A DNA stretch of 46,106 bases from Beijerinckia sp. L45. GTDB lineage: Bacteria; Pseudomonadota; Alphaproteobacteria; Rhizobiales; Beijerinckiaceae. Each line of letters starts with the position of its first letter. Within the stretch, counting starts at the first letter, position 1. A program made the translations under genes and the position numbers. This document shows, piece by piece, positions 4,539-38,602 of the stretch. The stretch is taken from contig NZ_LMUU01000216.1 in NCBI RefSeq assembly GCF_009765775.1, forward strand, positions 12,555 to 58,660, in the 5' to 3' direction. The notes beneath the pieces are model-generated. The model worked only from the letters and a program-made list of their open reading frames with translations. It did not search any database and was not told where the DNA came from.

Positions 4539-5088
4539 AGCAAGATCATCCGCCGCTCGCGAAGACGTCCGCGGCGAAGGCGTGCCACATAACAAGCGGG
4601 GCGGGCCGTGTCCACCCTTGGCAGGGAAAAAGTCCGGGAAATCGCTAGGACGGCTTAGCTTCCGCTGTGACGCGGGCGAACCATGCGTCACGCGGCAGCG
4701 GGCGTCGCTGGCGCCCGTCACGATCGCGGGCGACGCGTGTCGAGCCCGGTTCGGCGCCAATGCGGTGGCGCAGACCGACGGCCACCGGACCGCTTGCGGG
4801 GGCAAACAAGTCTGTTGCGCCGATCGGTCCGGGCGGCGGGTCTTGCCTTGGCCCGGCGCGGCGCTCATCCTGGCGTGTCGCGACGGGATCGCAGGGCGCT
4901 GCAGGCGGTGACGCGTGACGCAGAGTGACACGAAAATGTCGAGTTTCGCGCCGCGGTTTTGCAAACAAGCCACACACGACGTGGCTGGATCCGGTGGGAG
5001 CCGCAAGCTGTGGCGCCCCTTGCACCGCCTTCGGCGGTCCCCCTCCCCGGCGCTGCGCGCAGGGGAAGATAAGAACCCCAGCCAGACG
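4539..5088. other. Non-coding stretch between tRNA-Lys and leuA
   Basis: About 550 bp with no supported gene. Open frames here are GC-rich artefacts, and one leftward frame simply reads through the tRNA. The only clear structure is a GC-rich palindromic repeat fragment at about 5015-5070 just past the leuA stop. Confidence 0.6.
5015..5070. repeat. Partial copy of GC-rich palindromic element downstream of leuA
   Basis: It contains the small hairpin ACCGCC-TTC-GGCGGT (5024-5038), then CCCCCTCCCC and a GC hairpin ending AGGGGAAG. The same building blocks (a CCGCC..GGCGG hairpin next to a CCCCCTCC tract) occur in the element inside ccmA (38156-38285), so this looks like a degenerate or half copy. 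It may also help terminate leuA transcription, although no T-run follows. Confidence 0.5.
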
Positions 5089-6660
5089 TCAACTGGCGAG
5101 GGTATCGGGGCGGAGCTTGGCGCGCTTGACCATCAGCTTGTTCAAGGCGGCGATGTAGGCGCGGGCCGAGGCCACCAAGGTGTCTGGATCGGCGCCCCGC
5201 GCCGTGACCTGCTTCTCGCCCTCCACGAGGCGCACGGAGACCTCCGCCTGCGCGTCGGTGCCCCGCGTCACCGCGTGGACCTGATAGAGGTCCAGCACGG
5301 CGTTGTGCGGCACCAGCGTGACGATGGCGTTGAAGATCGCATCGACCGGGCCGTTGCCCTCCGCCTTGAAGGTTTTGAGCGCGCCGTCGACGTCGAGGGC
5401 GATCTCGGCCGACTGCGGGCCGGTGGTGCCGGCGATCACGGCAAGGCTCGCCAGCGTGATGCGCTCGTTCTTGTGGCCGATTTCATCGTCGACGAGAGCC
5501 TCGATGTCCTCGTCGTAGACGATCTTCTTCTTGTCGGCCAAATCCTTGAACCGGGTGAAGGCGTCCTGAAGCGCGTTGTCGCCGAGGACGTAGCCCATGT
5601 CCTTCAGCTTCTCCTTAAAAGCATGCCGGCCGGAGTGCTTGCCCATCACCAGCGACGTCTTGGCGACGCCGACGCTTTCCGGGGTCATGATCTCGTAGGT
5701 CGAGGCATTTTTGAGCATGCCGTCCTGGTGGATGCCGCTCTCATGCGCAAAGGCGTTCCGACCGACGATGGCCTTGTTGTACTGCACCGGAAACGAGGTC
5801 ACGGCGGAGACGAGCTTCGAAGCGCGCGTCAGCATGGTCGCGTCGATGCCGCTGGAATAGTGCAGCGCGTCGGGGCGGGTCTTGATCGCCATCACCACCT
5901 CTTCCAAGGCGGCATTGCCGGCCCGCTCGCCGAGGCCGTTGATGGTGCATTCGATCTGTCGGGCGCCACCGGCGACGCCGGCGAGCGAGTTGGCCATCGC
6001 CAGGCCGAGGTCGTCGTGGCAATGCACCGAAAACACCGCCTTGTCGGCGTTGGGCACGCGCTCGCGCACGTTGCGGAACATCGCCTCGTATTCGGCAGGC
6101 ACGGCGTAGCCGACGGTATCGGGCAGGTTGATGGTGGTGGCGCCGGCCTTGATCGCGGCCTCGACGCAGCGGCAGAGGTAGTCGAGCGGGGTGCGGGTGG
6201 CGTCCATCGCCGACCATTCGACATCGCCGACGAGGTTGCGGGCCTGGGTCACCGTGCGGGAAATAATCTCCAGCACCTGCTCCTGGCTCTTGTTCATCTG
6301 GTGCGCGAGGTGGATCGGCGAGGTCGAGACGAAGGTGTGGATGCGTGGGCTCACCGCGTGCCGCACCGCCTCGCCGCAGCGGGCGATATCGCCCTCGATG
6401 GCGCGGGCGAGGCCAGCGATGGTGGCGCGCTTGGTGGCCTTGGCGATGGCCGAGACGGCTTCGAAATCACCTTCGGACGCGATCGGGAAGCCGGCCTCGA
6501 TGATGTCGACGCCCATCGCGTCGAGAAGCGCGGCAACTTCGAGCTTGTCCTCGAAGGTCATGGTGGCGCCGGGGCACTGCTCGCCGTCGCGCAAGGTGGT
6601 GTCGAAGATGACGATCGGCGACTTGGCGTCGGCAATCGGCGGTTGGGTTGCGGTGGTCAT
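5089..6660 (-). CDS. leuA: 2-isopropylmalate synthase
   Basis: The enzyme condenses acetyl-CoA with 2-ketoisovalerate, the committed step of leucine biosynthesis, in the cytosol. The 523-residue length fits the family. The TIM-barrel catalytic domain begins VIFDTTLRDGEQCPGA (residues about 17-32), carries the metal ligands in SVHCHDDLGLAMANS, and has NGLGERAGNAALEE. The C-terminal part (about 395-520) is the LeuA allosteric dimer domain that senses leucine. The ATG at 6660 has AGGA about 9 nt upstream. The leader at 6661-6860 holds a Leu-rich ORF and competing hairpins, so attenuation by leucine supply is likely in addition to feedback inhibition. Confidence 0.97.
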   Translation of the reverse strand: MTTATQPPIADAKSPIVIFDTTLRDGEQCPGATMTFEDKLEVAALLDAMGVDIIEAGFPIASEGDFEAVSAIAKATKRATIAGLARAIEGDIARCGEAVRHAVSPRIHTFVSTSPIHLAHQMNKSQEQVLEIISRTVTQARNLVGDVEWSAMDATRTPLDYLCRCVEAAIKAGATTINLPDTVGYAVPAEYEAMFRNVRERVPNADKAVFSVHCHDDLGLAMANSLAGVAGGARQIECTINGLGERAGNAALEEVVMAIKTRPDALHYSSGIDATMLTRASKLVSAVTSFPVQYNKAIVGRNAFAHESGIHQDGMLKNASTYEIMTPESVGVAKTSLVMGKHSGRHAFKEKLKDMGYVLGDNALQDAFTRFKDLADKKKIVYDEDIEALVDDEIGHKNERITLASLAVIAGTTGPQSAEIALDVDGALKTFKAEGNGPVDAIFNAIVTLVPHNAVLDLYQVHAVTRGTDAQAEVSVRLVEGEKQVTARGADPDTLVASARAYIAALNKLMVKRAKLRPDTLAS

Positions 6661-14248: not shown

Positions 14249-14338
14249 GTCTTCGCGAGCCGGAGGCGAAGCAACCCAGAGCCGCAAACCTCAAGTTGTG
14301 CTGAGGCTCCTGGGTTGCTTCGCTTGGCTCGCAAAGAC
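14249..14338. repeat. Palindromic repeat, family A, copy 1
   Basis: Long imperfect inverted arms of about 28-30 bp (14249-14278 and 14311-14338) end in GTCTTCGCGAGC and GCTCGCAAAGAC, with GAAGCAACCCA/TGGGTTGCTTC at the inner ends. A related copy lies at 28142-28236. No coding capacity. It resembles the REP/MITE-like intergenic palindromes spread through Bradyrhizobium-type genomes. Confidence 0.8.
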
Positions 14339-14375
14339 GTTTTAAACCAACCAAATCTCGACCATCTGCCAAACG

Positions 14376-20687: not shown

Positions 20688-22040
20688 CTACCGCCGCAGC
20701 GCCGTCAGCACCGACACGCTCGCCCGCCCATCCGGCTTCAGCCCGGCCTTGCCCTGAAAATCGGCGATCGCCTCGCGCGTCTTGTCGCCGATCACCCCAT
20801 CGATCTTGCCCTGCAGGTCGTAGCCGCGCTGCACCAGGCGGGTCTGGACCTCGCGGCGATCGGCCCGCGACAGGCCGGGGTCGTCCGTCGGCCATGGGGT
20901 TTTCAAGCCGGGCTGCCCGCGCAGTCGATCCGACAGCAGCGAGATCGCCAGCGCGTAACTTTCCGCGGCATTGTAGCCGTAGATCGCATCGAAGTTGCGG
21001 GTGACGAGGAAGGCCGGCCCCTCGGGTCCGGCCGGCAGCAGCAGCCCGGCGGCGCCCTCGCCGAGCGGGCGCCCGTCGACCCGCCGGATGCCGCGCCCGG
21101 CCCAGGCCGTCATCGGCTGTTTTTTGGTGCGCCCGGACGGACCGTTGTAGCCTTCCGGCAGCTTGACCTCGAACCCCCAGGTCCCGCCGGTCTGCCAGCC
21201 GGCCTTCTTCAGATAATTGGCGGTCGAGGCCAGGGCGTCCGGCACCGAATTGATGAGGTCACGCCTACCATCGCCGTCGCCATCGACGGCGATGCGCAGG
21301 AAGGTTGAGGGCATGAACTGGGTGTGGCCGAAGGCCCCCGCCCAGGAGCCCTTGAACTGGGCCGGATCGATATCGCCAGCCTGCAGGATCTTGAGAGCCG
21401 CGACGAATTCGGTGCGGAAATAGGCCTGACGGCGGCCGTCGCAGGACAGCGTCGCCAGCGACTGGACGATCGGGCGATTGCCGAAAGCCTGGCCGAAATT
21501 CGACTCGACGCCCCAGACCGCGGCCACCGTCGCGGGGTCGACGCCGAAGCGGCTCTGCGCGGAGGCAAACGCCTGTCCCCATTTACGCATATTGGCCTGC
21601 CCATCGGCGACGCGCTCGTCGTCGACGAGGCCGGCGAGATAGTCCCAGATCGGCGTCTTGAACTCCGGCTGCGACGTCGAGAAGGTGATGACCTCGGGGT
21701 TCGGCTGCAGCCCTTGGGTCGCCTGATCGAACGTCTGCGTCGACACGCCGCCCGCCGCCGCGGTGACGCGGAGCCCGGCGAGGCAGGTCTGGAAATCGGC
21801 GCGCGCCGAATGAGCAGCGAAGAAGGCAATCAGGACGGCCCCGAGACCAAGCCATTTGCTCCCCCTCCCCCTTGCGGGAAGGGGAAGGGGTGGGGGTCGA
21901 CGTGTTCCTTGGGCCACGAGGCGTCCCAAAAACGAAACCCTTGGACCAGTGAAACAGACGGATAAACCGCCACCCCTAACCCCTCCCCGCGAGGGGGAAG
22001 GGGGAGCGCCCGCGGCCGTCATGCTCAAACCCTTGCTCAT
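20688..22040 (-). CDS. Lytic murein transglycosylase (MltB/SLT_2 type) with PG-binding domain
   Basis: The enzyme cleaves peptidoglycan glycan strands in the periplasm. The frame gives 450 residues from the ATG at 22040. The catalytic Glu is 179 in AVWGVESNFGQ. SLT_2 motifs FGHTQFMPSTF and DGDGDGRRDL follow, and a PG_binding_1 domain occupies about 380-447 (TRLVQRGYDLQGKIDGVIG). The signal-peptide core is at residues 62-81 (KWLGLGAVLIAFFAAHSARA). Residues 12-61 are encoded by an inserted 150-bp palindromic element. Removing it joins MSKGLSMTAAG directly to KWLGLG, a normal signal peptide. Start is 12 bp after the ftsX stop, so it is probably co-transcribed with ftsEX. Confidence 0.9.
   Translation of the reverse strand: MSKGLSMTAAGAPPSPSRGGVRGGGLSVCFTGPRVSFLGRLVAQGTRRPPPLPLPARGRGSKWLGLGAVLIAFFAAHSARADFQTCLAGLRVTAAAGGVSTQTFDQATQGLQPNPEVITFSTSQPEFKTPIWDYLAGLVDDERVADGQANMRKWGQAFASAQSRFGVDPATVAAVWGVESNFGQAFGNRPIVQSLATLSCDGRRQAYFRTEFVAALKILQAGDIDPAQFKGSWAGAFGHTQFMPSTFLRIAVDGDGDGRRDLINSVPDALASTANYLKKAGWQTGGTWGFEVKLPEGYNGPSGRTKKQPMTAWAGRGIRRVDGRPLGEGAAGLLLPAGPEGPAFLVTRNFDAIYGYNAAESYALAISLLSDRLRGQPGLKTPWPTDDPGLSRADRREVQTRLVQRGYDLQGKIDGVIGDKTREAIADFQGKAGLKPDGRASVSVLTALRR
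21858..22007. repeat. GC-rich palindromic element inserted in frame in the transglycosylase gene
   Basis: The element is exactly 150 bp with terminal inverted arms GCTCCCCCTCCCCCTTGCGG and, at the other end, CCCCGCGAGGGGGAAGGGGG then AGC. The middle 60-odd bp is non-repetitive. It occupies codons 12-61 of the host gene precisely and leaves the frame open. It is related to the copy in ccmA (38156-38285). Confidence 0.8.
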
Positions 22041-27217: not shown

Positions 27218-28171
27218 ATGACCACGCCGTTCCGCAGCATCGTCGCCTGGGTCGCCTGGCCCGGCATTCTGGCCGCCTGCATCGTCGCGACGCAGGCGAG
27301 CTTCGCGCTGGGCCAGCCGATCGCCGGTTTCTACGTGACCTACCTCGCCTTCGCCGTCGGCCTCCTGCTGCTCGAGCGCTGGATGCCGCACGAGCAGGCT
27401 TGGACACAGAGCGACGGGCAACTCGGCGCGGACCTCACGCACACGCTGGTCAGCAACGGCGCGATCCAGGGTCTTCTGATGTTCAGCGGCATGATCGGCC
27501 TCTCCGCCGCCGGCACCGCGCTCGGCGAACCGAACTTTGGCCTCTGGCCCCGCCATTGGCCGCTGGCGCTGCAGATCGTGCTCGGCCTGATCGTCTCGGA
27601 ATTCGCGATGTACTGGGCGCATCGCATCGCCCACGAGTGGACGCCGCTCTGGCATTTTCACGCCGTCCATCACAGCGTGGAAAAGCTCTGGATCGTCAAT
27701 TCCGGACGCTTCCATTTCGTCGACGCGGTGAAGAGCGTGCTGCCCGGCATCGCCCTCCTCCTGGCGTTGGGCGCGCCTATGGACGTGCTGACCTGGCTCT
27801 CGGCACTTGGCGCCTTCATCGGCACTCTCACTCACTGCAACGTGGCGATGCGCTTCGGCGTGCTCTCGGCGGTCTTCAACACGCCGGAACTGCACCGCTG
27901 GCACCACAGCATGGACCTGCGCGAAGGCAACAAGAACTACGGCGAGAACATCATGCTATGGGACTGGGTCTTTGGGACCTGGTTCAATGCGAACCGCCGC
28001 CCGCCGGCGACGATCGGCATCCCGGAGGCTATGCCGGTGCGGTTCCGGGATCAGATCGTATGGCCGTTCCGGCGGGCTTTTCGGGAGGCCCATGGCATGA
28101 GTGCGACGGTGGTCGAGACGGCACCCGACCTGCGCGGTCCCCGTCTTTGCGAGCGCAGCGAAGCAATCTAG
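27218..28171 (+). CDS. Sterol desaturase/fatty acid hydroxylase family di-iron membrane enzyme
   Basis: The 317-residue integral membrane protein has His-box motifs for a di-iron centre: YWAHRIAHEW, HFHAVHHSVEKLW and LHRWHHSMD, followed by NYGENIMLWDWVFGTWF. Four to five TM segments surround them. Such enzymes hydroxylate or desaturate lipids; the substrate is unknown. The last residues (about RGPRLCERSEAI) are encoded by a palindromic repeat whose left arm provides the TAG stop, so the native C-terminus has been replaced or extended. Confidence 0.9.
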   Translation: MTTPFRSIVAWVAWPGILAACIVATQASFALGQPIAGFYVTYLAFAVGLLLLERWMPHEQAWTQSDGQLGADLTHTLVSNGAIQGLLMFSGMIGLSAAGTALGEPNFGLWPRHWPLALQIVLGLIVSEFAMYWAHRIAHEWTPLWHFHAVHHSVEKLWIVNSGRFHFVDAVKSVLPGIALLLALGAPMDVLTWLSALGAFIGTLTHCNVAMRFGVLSAVFNTPELHRWHHSMDLREGNKNYGENIMLWDWVFGTWFNANRRPPATIGIPEAMPVRFRDQIVWPFRRAFREAHGMSATVVETAPDLRGPRLCERSEAI

Positions 28172-28236
28172 GAGCCGCAGAAGGCGCTCTCGAAGGAGCA
28201 GCGGCCCTGGATTGCTTCGCTGCGCTCGCAATGACG
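28142..28236. repeat. Palindromic repeat, family A, copy 2, overlapping a gene end
   Basis: Inverted arms of 27 bp (28142-28168 and 28210-28236) read CGTCTTTGCGAGCGCAGCG and, at the other end, GATTGCTTCGCTGCGCTCGC then AATGACG. It is the same family as 14249-14338. The left arm encodes the last residues and stop of the sterol-desaturase-like gene. Confidence 0.85.
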
Positions 28237-37199: not shown

Positions 37200-37868
37200 C
37201 TACTCGTTCATCGCCCGCAGCGCCGCCGCCGCGGCAAACGGGGCGCCGGCGATCGCGGCAAGGCTGAGCGCGCAAAGCACCAGGAACGGCGTCAGAAACG
37301 GGACCGGGTTGCCCTGCCCGGCATTGGCCGCCGCGACCCCAAAGATCAGCACGGGGACGCAGAGCGGCAGGATCAGGATCGCCATCAACAAGCCGCCTTT
37401 GCGCAGGCCGACGGTGAGCGCCGCGCCGATTGCGCCCAGCATCGTGAGAGCCGGCGTGCCGGCGGCGAGCGAGGCCGTGGTCTGCCACAGCGCCTGAGGG
37501 CTCATCCCCAGCATCAGCCCGAACAACGGTGTCGCGATCACCAGCGGCAGCCCGGTCAGCAGCCAGTGCGCCAGGCATTTGACCAGGACGATGGCCTCGC
37601 CCGGCGTCCGGCTCATCAGCAGCAGATCGAGCGAGCCGTCGTCGCGGTCGGACTGGAACAGACGGTCGAGGCCGAGCAGCGTCGCAAGCAGTCCGGCGAT
37701 CCACAGGATGGCCGGGCCGATGCGCGACAGCACGTTGAGATCGGGCCCGATGGCGAAGGGCATCAGCGCGATCAGGATAAAGAAGAAAACCACCCCCATC
37801 GACGCGCCGCCGCCGAGGCGACGGCCGACGCGAAGGTCGCGCCGGAACAGCGCACCGAGGGCGTTCAT
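37200..37868 (-). CDS. ccmB: Heme exporter permease CcmB
   Basis: The 222-residue protein starts at the ATG at 37868 (overlapping the ccmA stop as ATGA). Six TM helices are visible; the start LFRRDLRVGRRLGGGASMGV and FQSDRDDGSLDLLLMSRTPG are family-typical. It forms the CcmAB transporter that releases holo-CcmE from CcmC. Its stop lies 3 bp from the end of the convergent AT-rich orphan. Confidence 0.94.
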   Translation of the reverse strand: MNALGALFRRDLRVGRRLGGGASMGVVFFFILIALMPFAIGPDLNVLSRIGPAILWIAGLLATLLGLDRLFQSDRDDGSLDLLLMSRTPGEAIVLVKCLAHWLLTGLPLVIATPLFGLMLGMSPQALWQTTASLAAGTPALTMLGAIGAALTVGLRKGGLLMAILILPLCVPVLIFGVAAANAGQGNPVPFLTPFLVLCALSLAAIAGAPFAAAAALRAMNE

Positions 37869-38602
37869 GCGAGGCCGCCGAGATCGATGCTGCGGCAAGG
37901 CAGCCCCAGCGGCGCATGCGAGGCGGCGACGATCGCGCCGCCCTTCGCGACATGCGCCGCCATGATCGCGGTCAACGTCTGCTGCGCGCCGACATCGAGG
38001 GCGATGAGCGGCTCGTCGAGCAACCAGATCGGCCGCGGGGTCAGCAACAGGCGGGCCAGCGCGACGCGGCGTTTCTGCCCGGCTGAGAGGTAGGCGGCCG
38101 GGAGATCCAGCAGCCGCGCGATGCCGAAGGCGGTGAGAGCATCGCGCGGCGAGAGATCCTCCCTTGCGAAGCGGGAGAGGGGGACCGCCGGAGGCGGTGG
38201 AGGGGGCAAGTCTGCAGCAACCTCGGGCGGCGCCCCCTCCACCACGCTGCGCGTGGTCCCGCTCCCCCGCTCTGCGGGAGAGGATGGTCCCAGCATCGCG
38301 GCCCAGAAGGTCAGGTTTTCGCCGACCGTCAACGACGGCTTCAGCGCGTCTTCATAGCCAAGATAATGCACCGTCTCGACGCCGCGCACCTCGTCGCTTG
38401 CGTCCGCAAAAACGATGCGGCCGCTTTGCATTGGGAGCAGACCGGCGAGTGTCCGCAGCAAGGTGGATTTCCCTGCACCGTTGCGGCCTGTGACCAGCAG
38501 AACCTCACCCGTTCCAAGCGAAAATGTGAGGTCGGACAGCACGATGCGCCCGCCGCGTTCGACGGTCAGCGCATCAACGGCAAGGAGGGCGGAATCGATC
38601 AA
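37865..38602 (-). CDS. ccmA: Heme exporter ATPase CcmA carrying an inserted repeat
   Basis: The 245-residue ABC ATPase powers the CcmAB step of cytochrome c maturation. Walker A is GRNGAGKST (39-47), the signature is LSAGQKRRVALARLL (172-186), and Walker B is WLLDEP with the H-loop SHAPL. CcmA proteins are usually near 200 residues. The excess lies at about 107-149, rich in Pro and charged residues (SPAERGSGTTRSVVEGAPPE ... LPPPPPPAVPLSR), and is encoded by a GC-rich palindromic element at 38156-38285 that keeps the frame. The insert lies between the Q-loop region and the signature motif, in the helical subdomain. Activity is probably kept but unproven. Confidence 0.92.
   Translation of the reverse strand: MIDSALLAVDALTVERGGRIVLSDLTFSLGTGEVLLVTGRNGAGKSTLLRTLAGLLPMQSGRIVFADASDEVRGVETVHYLGYEDALKPSLTVGENLTFWAAMLGPSSPAERGSGTTRSVVEGAPPEVAADLPPPPPPAVPLSRFAREDLSPRDALTAFGIARLLDLPAAYLSAGQKRRVALARLLLTPRPIWLLDEPLIALDVGAQQTLTAIMAAHVAKGGAIVAASHAPLGLPCRSIDLGGLA
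38156..38285. repeat. GC-rich palindromic element inserted in frame in ccmA
   Basis: About 130 bp with inverted ends ATCCTCCCTTGCGAAGCGGG and, at the other end, CCGCTCTGCGGGAGAGGAT. Inner hairpins include ACCGCC/GGCGGT and ACCACGC/GCGTGGT, with CCCCCTCC tracts. Boundaries are read from the inverted repeat and from the excess over normal CcmA length. It is related to 21858-22007 and to the fragment at about 5015-5070. Confidence 0.8.

Follow-up and report, generated by a model that had tools for sequence, protein, structure and literature searches.

Rickettsia palindromic elements (RPE) are alphaproteobacterial palindromes of 105-146 bp that are fused in frame within conserved proteins, where they are tolerated, e.g., in gmk (PMC2229807; PMC10969869). 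In a tested case, gmk with its RPE is still active and has a changed substrate affinity (PMC2229807; reviewed in PMC10969869), and just under half of the initial RPE set was intragenic (PMC10969869). GTAG and CGTC REPs are short palindromes that are mostly intergenic, are often arranged as inverted pairs and lie occasionally in genes, with the UvrABCD genes already named among their intragenic targets; in-frame insertion is described for these REPs as well, and CGTC REPs are the commonest in alphaproteobacteria and apparently have no dedicated transposase (PMC3733652). In-frame fusions have also been reported for some MITEs (ERIC, Correia/NEMIS and RUP) (PMC2229807; PMC10969869). Br-REP1 and Br-REP2 of Bradyrhizobium are dispersed palindromes of 3'-UTRs and intergenic regions (PMC5082802). 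In-frame insertion of palindromes is a known kind of event, to which the family described below adds a new member that we did not find described elsewhere. No account of the family, or of an insertion in ccmA, was found among the literature matches listed, with most subscription journals outside reach, and a text search with four pieces of the family consensus gave no bacterial repeat among the matches listed.

The element lies within ccmA, the gene of the heme exporter ATP-binding protein, in a 46,106-nucleotide stretch of Beijerinckia sp. L45 DNA that was analysed as a whole (the window). It is a palindromic doublet of 130 nt at 38156-38285, which corresponds to residues 107-149 of CcmA (SSPAERGSGTTRSVVEGAPPEVAADLPPPPPPAVPLSRFARED); it lies in frame and lengthens the protein by 43 residues, placed after the Q-loop region and before the LSAGQ signature. 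We consider it likely, at a probability of roughly 0.85, that a non-autonomous REP/MITE-like doublet was inserted in ccmA of this lineage and is translated as a tolerated 43-residue loop. Half-element 1 (38156-38207, plus strand, 52 nt, ATCCTC...GGGGGC; nhmmer 39.7 bits) and half-element 2 (38232-38285, minus strand, 54 nt; 34.7 bits) are inverted relative to each other, were both recognized with covariance model R1, and are separated by a spacer of 24 nt at 38208-38231. By eye, a half-element consists of a first hairpin, a second hairpin and then a tail, GGAGGGGGC; the second hairpin takes one of two forms, GACCGCC/GGCGGT or GACCATGC/GCATGGT. Both ccmA halves align with 29 other halves, with 13 invariant columns, and the consensus of the 31 halves starts with ATCCTC and ends with GGGGGC; the fold of this alignment comprises 13 pairs, made up of the first stem and three pairs from the second, and three of the 13 have double changes. 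The RNA fold of 38140-38300 (minus strand) has an energy of -102.8 kcal/mol (z -5.62) that was equalled by none of 200 shuffles. Mean GC content of the family is 0.746 and all six reading frames are open in the ccmA copy. Its length is not divisible by three, which means that the event included lost or gained bases or was followed by later indels.

The host gene (37865-38602, minus strand) is listed as an ORF of 245 aa with a TTG start. TIGR01189 matches it in two separate stretches, scoring 208.3 bits (cut-off 131.6). The Walker A, LSAGQ and LLDEP motifs are all kept, as is the late histidine, and they occupy invariant columns among 49 aligned rows, so that both the equivalog profile and the ABC motifs identify the product as CcmA. 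The motif alignment also agrees with the first-pass annotation, which had placed an inverted-repeat element of about 130 bp between the Q-loop region and the signature with the ATPase motifs intact on either side; the element is now fixed at exactly 130 nt. Immediately downstream lies ccmB (37200-37898, minus strand; TIGR01190, 269.1 bits). The CcmA core has a mean identity of 53.2% to 42 other rows, compared with 51.7% and 50.0% for two genus mates (G002 and G003), and judged on this divergence, which is not above that of the mates, the core shows no sign of decay. A search of the same genome for a second ccmA gave no comparable CcmA-like match, with the next best at 6.2e-12. Core divergence no higher than in the mates, the adjoining ccmB and the lack of a rival CcmA-like match in the genome lead us to infer that ccmA is a functional gene, and the insert-bearing protein is presumably made and working.

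That ccmA is decaying, or that the element arose as an artefact of assembly at a repeat, is scarcely credible on this evidence. The 5.67-Mb assembly is a draft with 277 contigs and several copies in related drafts lie near contig ends, as an artefact could produce, but ccmA sits on a contig of 120,791 bases, its ORF is open, its core has diverged no more than those of the genus mates, and the closest full-length doublet elsewhere shares only 81% identity with it, so the element is not a collapsed repeat.

Excess length in CcmA, put at about 40 residues in the first-pass annotation, is confirmed by comparison with relatives. Walker A and LSAGQ are 133 residues apart in this CcmA versus 100 in G002 and 95 in G003; no ccmA was detected at E<=1e-25 in a third genus mate (G001, 87% complete), and the genus comparison rests on the other two, whose loops are short rather than equally long with non-repeat sequence. 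A loop measure by tblastn of two parts of the CcmA core gave a value for all 110 loci, this one included: 40 residues here, 31-39 in four genomes of another genus (g31), and from -3 to 11 in each of the remaining 105 loci. The named CcmA loci closest to this one are mostly from Rhizobiales/Hyphomicrobiales, which is probably the order of this lineage too. Among the genomes examined, the palindromic insert occurs in this genome only; the ccmA element is a dispersed palindrome, in frame within a conserved protein and absent from its orthologues; we infer that it was gained in this lineage rather than lost elsewhere. The P-, E- and S-rich g31 loops (L061-L064) occupy the same place as the insert. 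A decayed repeat was considered as their origin and rejected, with inverted-repeat scores and fold energies not beyond those of shuffles in all four. Long g31 loops without a repeat indicate that the same loop has been lengthened by other means and is permissive, and also that length alone is no proof of insertion.

An AlphaFold2 model of CcmA, built from a 49-row alignment (pLDDT 85.2, pTM 0.82), gives block-mean pLDDT values of 49, 44, 47 and 63 across residues 111-150 compared with 93-98 for the blocks from 151 to 240. Within the insert, the model has a single four-residue helix at 142-145, and the flanking helices are at 93-104 and 152-158; residues 100-111 are the counterpart stretch in the solved CcmA structure 7vfp. 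The proline-rich 43-residue insert is therefore probably a disordered loop in a confidently predicted ATPase core. Co-option of the insert, whether in CcmA regulation, in contact with a partner subunit or as an mRNA hairpin that tunes ccmA-ccmB expression, could be read from the very stable fold and from the independent lengthening of the g31 loop at the same place, but is improbable: the low-confidence model is what disorder would give, and an insert confined to one genome among those examined leaves no conservation to weigh. Insertion of a tolerated doublet would involve the following steps: a doublet of a dispersed family would have landed in the ccmA loop between the two helices that separate the Q-loop region from the signature motif; the GC-rich element, being stop-free and net in frame, would then be read as a 43-residue loop; and selection would tolerate it because the ccmA loop is permissive. 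Such an insert would presumably be neutral.

Membership of a repeat family, also proposed in the first-pass annotation, is clear from the number of copies elsewhere in the genome. Model R1 was built from the 31 halves and 150 candidates were scored per genome, so that the counts are possibly lower bounds; it detects at least 55 half-copies in this genome and at least 17, 6 and 14 copies in three genus mates at E<=0.01. A DNA search of the same genome with the ccmA element gave 48 matches, both strands counted. Beyond the genus, R1 is carried by 17 of 149 sampled genomes of the family at E<=1e-7 and by 9 of 249 genomes of the order at E<=1e-8 (this genome included in both), and the distribution of the element is patchy. 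Within the window, there is one further copy, a single half at 5015-5070 (minus strand; nhmmer 30.9 bits) just past the stop of leuA (5089-6660, minus strand); it is non-genic by codon score and looks intergenic. No other copies of the family were found in the window, and an Rfam scan of the window at gathering thresholds gave tRNA only. Of 113 pairs of adjoining halves within 400 nt, 106 are inverted (65 +-, 41 -+, against 3 ++ and 4 --), so that neighbours are mostly opposite, as in BIME/REPIN-like doublets of REP type. Like GTAG/CGTC REPs, the family consists of mostly intergenic palindromes in inverted pairs with occasional genic copies and a uvr target, but its half-elements are 52-54 nt rather than 20-40 nt long and neither tag stands at the consensus ends; the ATCCTC...GGGGGC consensus lacks the CGTC tag. 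Br-REP1 and Br-REP2 are also dispersed alphaproteobacterial palindromes, although their consensus sequences, as printed in PMC5082802, look unlike that of the ccmA family by eye.

Mobilization by a RAYT was considered, and a RAYT was rejected as the likely mover: Y1_Tnp (PF01797) had no match in this genome and is absent from 19 of 24 genomes (this one included), with matches in the other five, four of them above the cut-off. Those 24 comprise 23 element carriers and G017, which has a repeat of its own; the carriers G111 and G182 were left out. With neither the tag nor a PF01797 match in this genome, the element differs from GTAG REPs, which are recognized by both. It resembles MITEs in its non-autonomous nature and terminal inverted symmetry, but its doublets differ in having no target-site duplication: none of 33 doublets has one of at least 3 nt (0.34 expected by chance), and one has a duplication of 2 nt (3.08 by chance). 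Insertion into pre-existing stems was also tried as an explanation and set aside, with at least five complementary flanking bases in 3 of 37 doublets (about 0.4 expected), which are few and do not include ccmA. The three, L305, L389 and L414, have 5-9 complementary bases on their flanks, as insertion into an existing stem would leave.

To compare coding and non-coding sites, a census was made of regions around copies in this genome, the genus, the family and the order, with those outside this genome mostly the best-scoring among the matches listed. A copy was counted as embedded where both flanks were coding and shared a single frame that continues across the element, under a codon model from 18 window ORFs. 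With flanks of 240 nt, 198 grouped sites were obtained, five were dropped at contig edges and 193 were evaluated. Four of these are embedded in frame (ccmA, uvrC, cobN and ureF, with copies outside this genome taken among the matches listed), 186 are of other kinds, and three have flanks that score well as coding on one strand but in different frames, and may be tandem or broken genes. The copy in cobN, the cobaltochelatase gene, is a single half (L372; TIGR02257 in two stretches) and that in ureF, a urease accessory gene, is at L396 (PF01730); they come from two other families of the order; within this genome, 2 of 38 sites are embedded. Flanks of 150 nt add one doubtful site, L281, that was kept out of the count, and a stricter earlier census of 132 sites (three at edges) retained ccmA and uvrC only. 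Bacterial genomes consist mostly of coding DNA, so genic sites are strongly under-represented among the copies. The count alone fits selection or a preference for intergenic targets alike.

Adaptation to coding insertion, in which the family would keep an open preferred frame and so spread through genes as proposed for RPE, had been raised in the first-pass annotation alongside filtering of insertions, and is very unlikely. The ccmA and uvrC copies do have the same phase at both ends (SSPA..RG..., ...PLSRFARED and ...SIPRSAGEE), the ccmA copy is open in all six frames, and 260 distinct halves have an open-frame fraction of 0.921 versus 0.857 in dinucleotide shuffles (sd 0.007), a figure inflated by related copies. 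A fixed coding phase, suspected from these two copies, is contradicted by cobN and ureF, which exit the element in another phase; moreover, 189 of the 193 sites are not intragenic in frame, the six frames of the halves are about equally open (0.91-0.94), and 55 doublets have a smaller excess (0.594 versus 0.532, sd 0.028). The copies read in coding frame seem to be rare survivors, not products of a repeat adapted to coding, and the pattern fits filtering, with rare insertions surviving in tolerant loops; the rarity of tolerated coding insertions now has a figure in the 4 of 193. The family is similar to RPE in length, in-frame fusion within conserved proteins and alphaproteobacterial host, but is set apart by description: it is GC-rich, is a two-half doublet, occurs in other organisms, and has neither a high genic share nor, with its differing phases, a conserved peptide. 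With the doublet in ccmA, a kind of in-frame insertion that is known above all from Rickettsia is now seen in a heme-export ATPase of a different alphaproteobacterium.

The uvrC copy of this genome is a doublet of 162-163 nt from the same family as the ccmA element, in frame in the UvrC hinge at residues 506-559 (uvrC at L181, 519-2675; 719 aa). The uvrC product was searched in 60 genomes of the family with matches in 58, from which 30 loci were taken and 29 hinges extracted; the hinge segment, conserved anchors included, ranges from 36 to 113 residues. Inverted-repeat scores that at most 1 of 100 shuffles reached were found for 6 of the 23 segments longer than 45 residues (L237, from this genome, and L238, L240, L246, L247 and L249), and the other 17 have no such excess. 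The insert in the G017 hinge (L247) is dispersed in its own genome, with 88 matches, both strands counted, and had no match in three other genomes tested; R1 had no match in G017 at E<=1e-7. At least two distinct palindromic families have therefore entered the UvrC hinge, in different genera, and the hinge is a second place of palindromic inserts, in other genera too. These hinge inserts are natural replicates for asking whether peptide gains are neutral. The UvrC hinge foremost, and perhaps the CcmA loop, might belong to a small number of permissive loops that are recurrent landing pads where unrelated alphaproteobacterial palindrome families independently became coding; we put this forward tentatively and at less than even odds. 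If true, short mobile palindromes could generally supply conserved proteins with new disordered peptide, far beyond Rickettsia.

Another palindromic element of the window, at about 21850-22015 (minus strand), lies near the N terminus of an SLT_2 lytic transglycosylase gene (20688-22040, minus strand; identified by profile), and the fold of 21850-22020 has a z of -6.26. The first-pass annotation took it for a relative of the ccmA element and counted two in-frame insertions of one family. Both are indeed palindromic and dispersed, but the families differ: a blastn-short comparison of the two elements gave no match at E<=10, and the 76 genome matches of the transglycosylase element (both strands counted) do not include the site in ccmA. 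They are two dispersed families of one kind. Under the ORF start as listed, the transglycosylase element is in frame and lies upstream of an apparent signal-peptide region. Inverted repeats at 28142-28236 and 14301-14339, with CGTCTTTGCGAGC at one end, resemble by eye the CGTC-tagged REPs, with the tag as named in PMC3733652.
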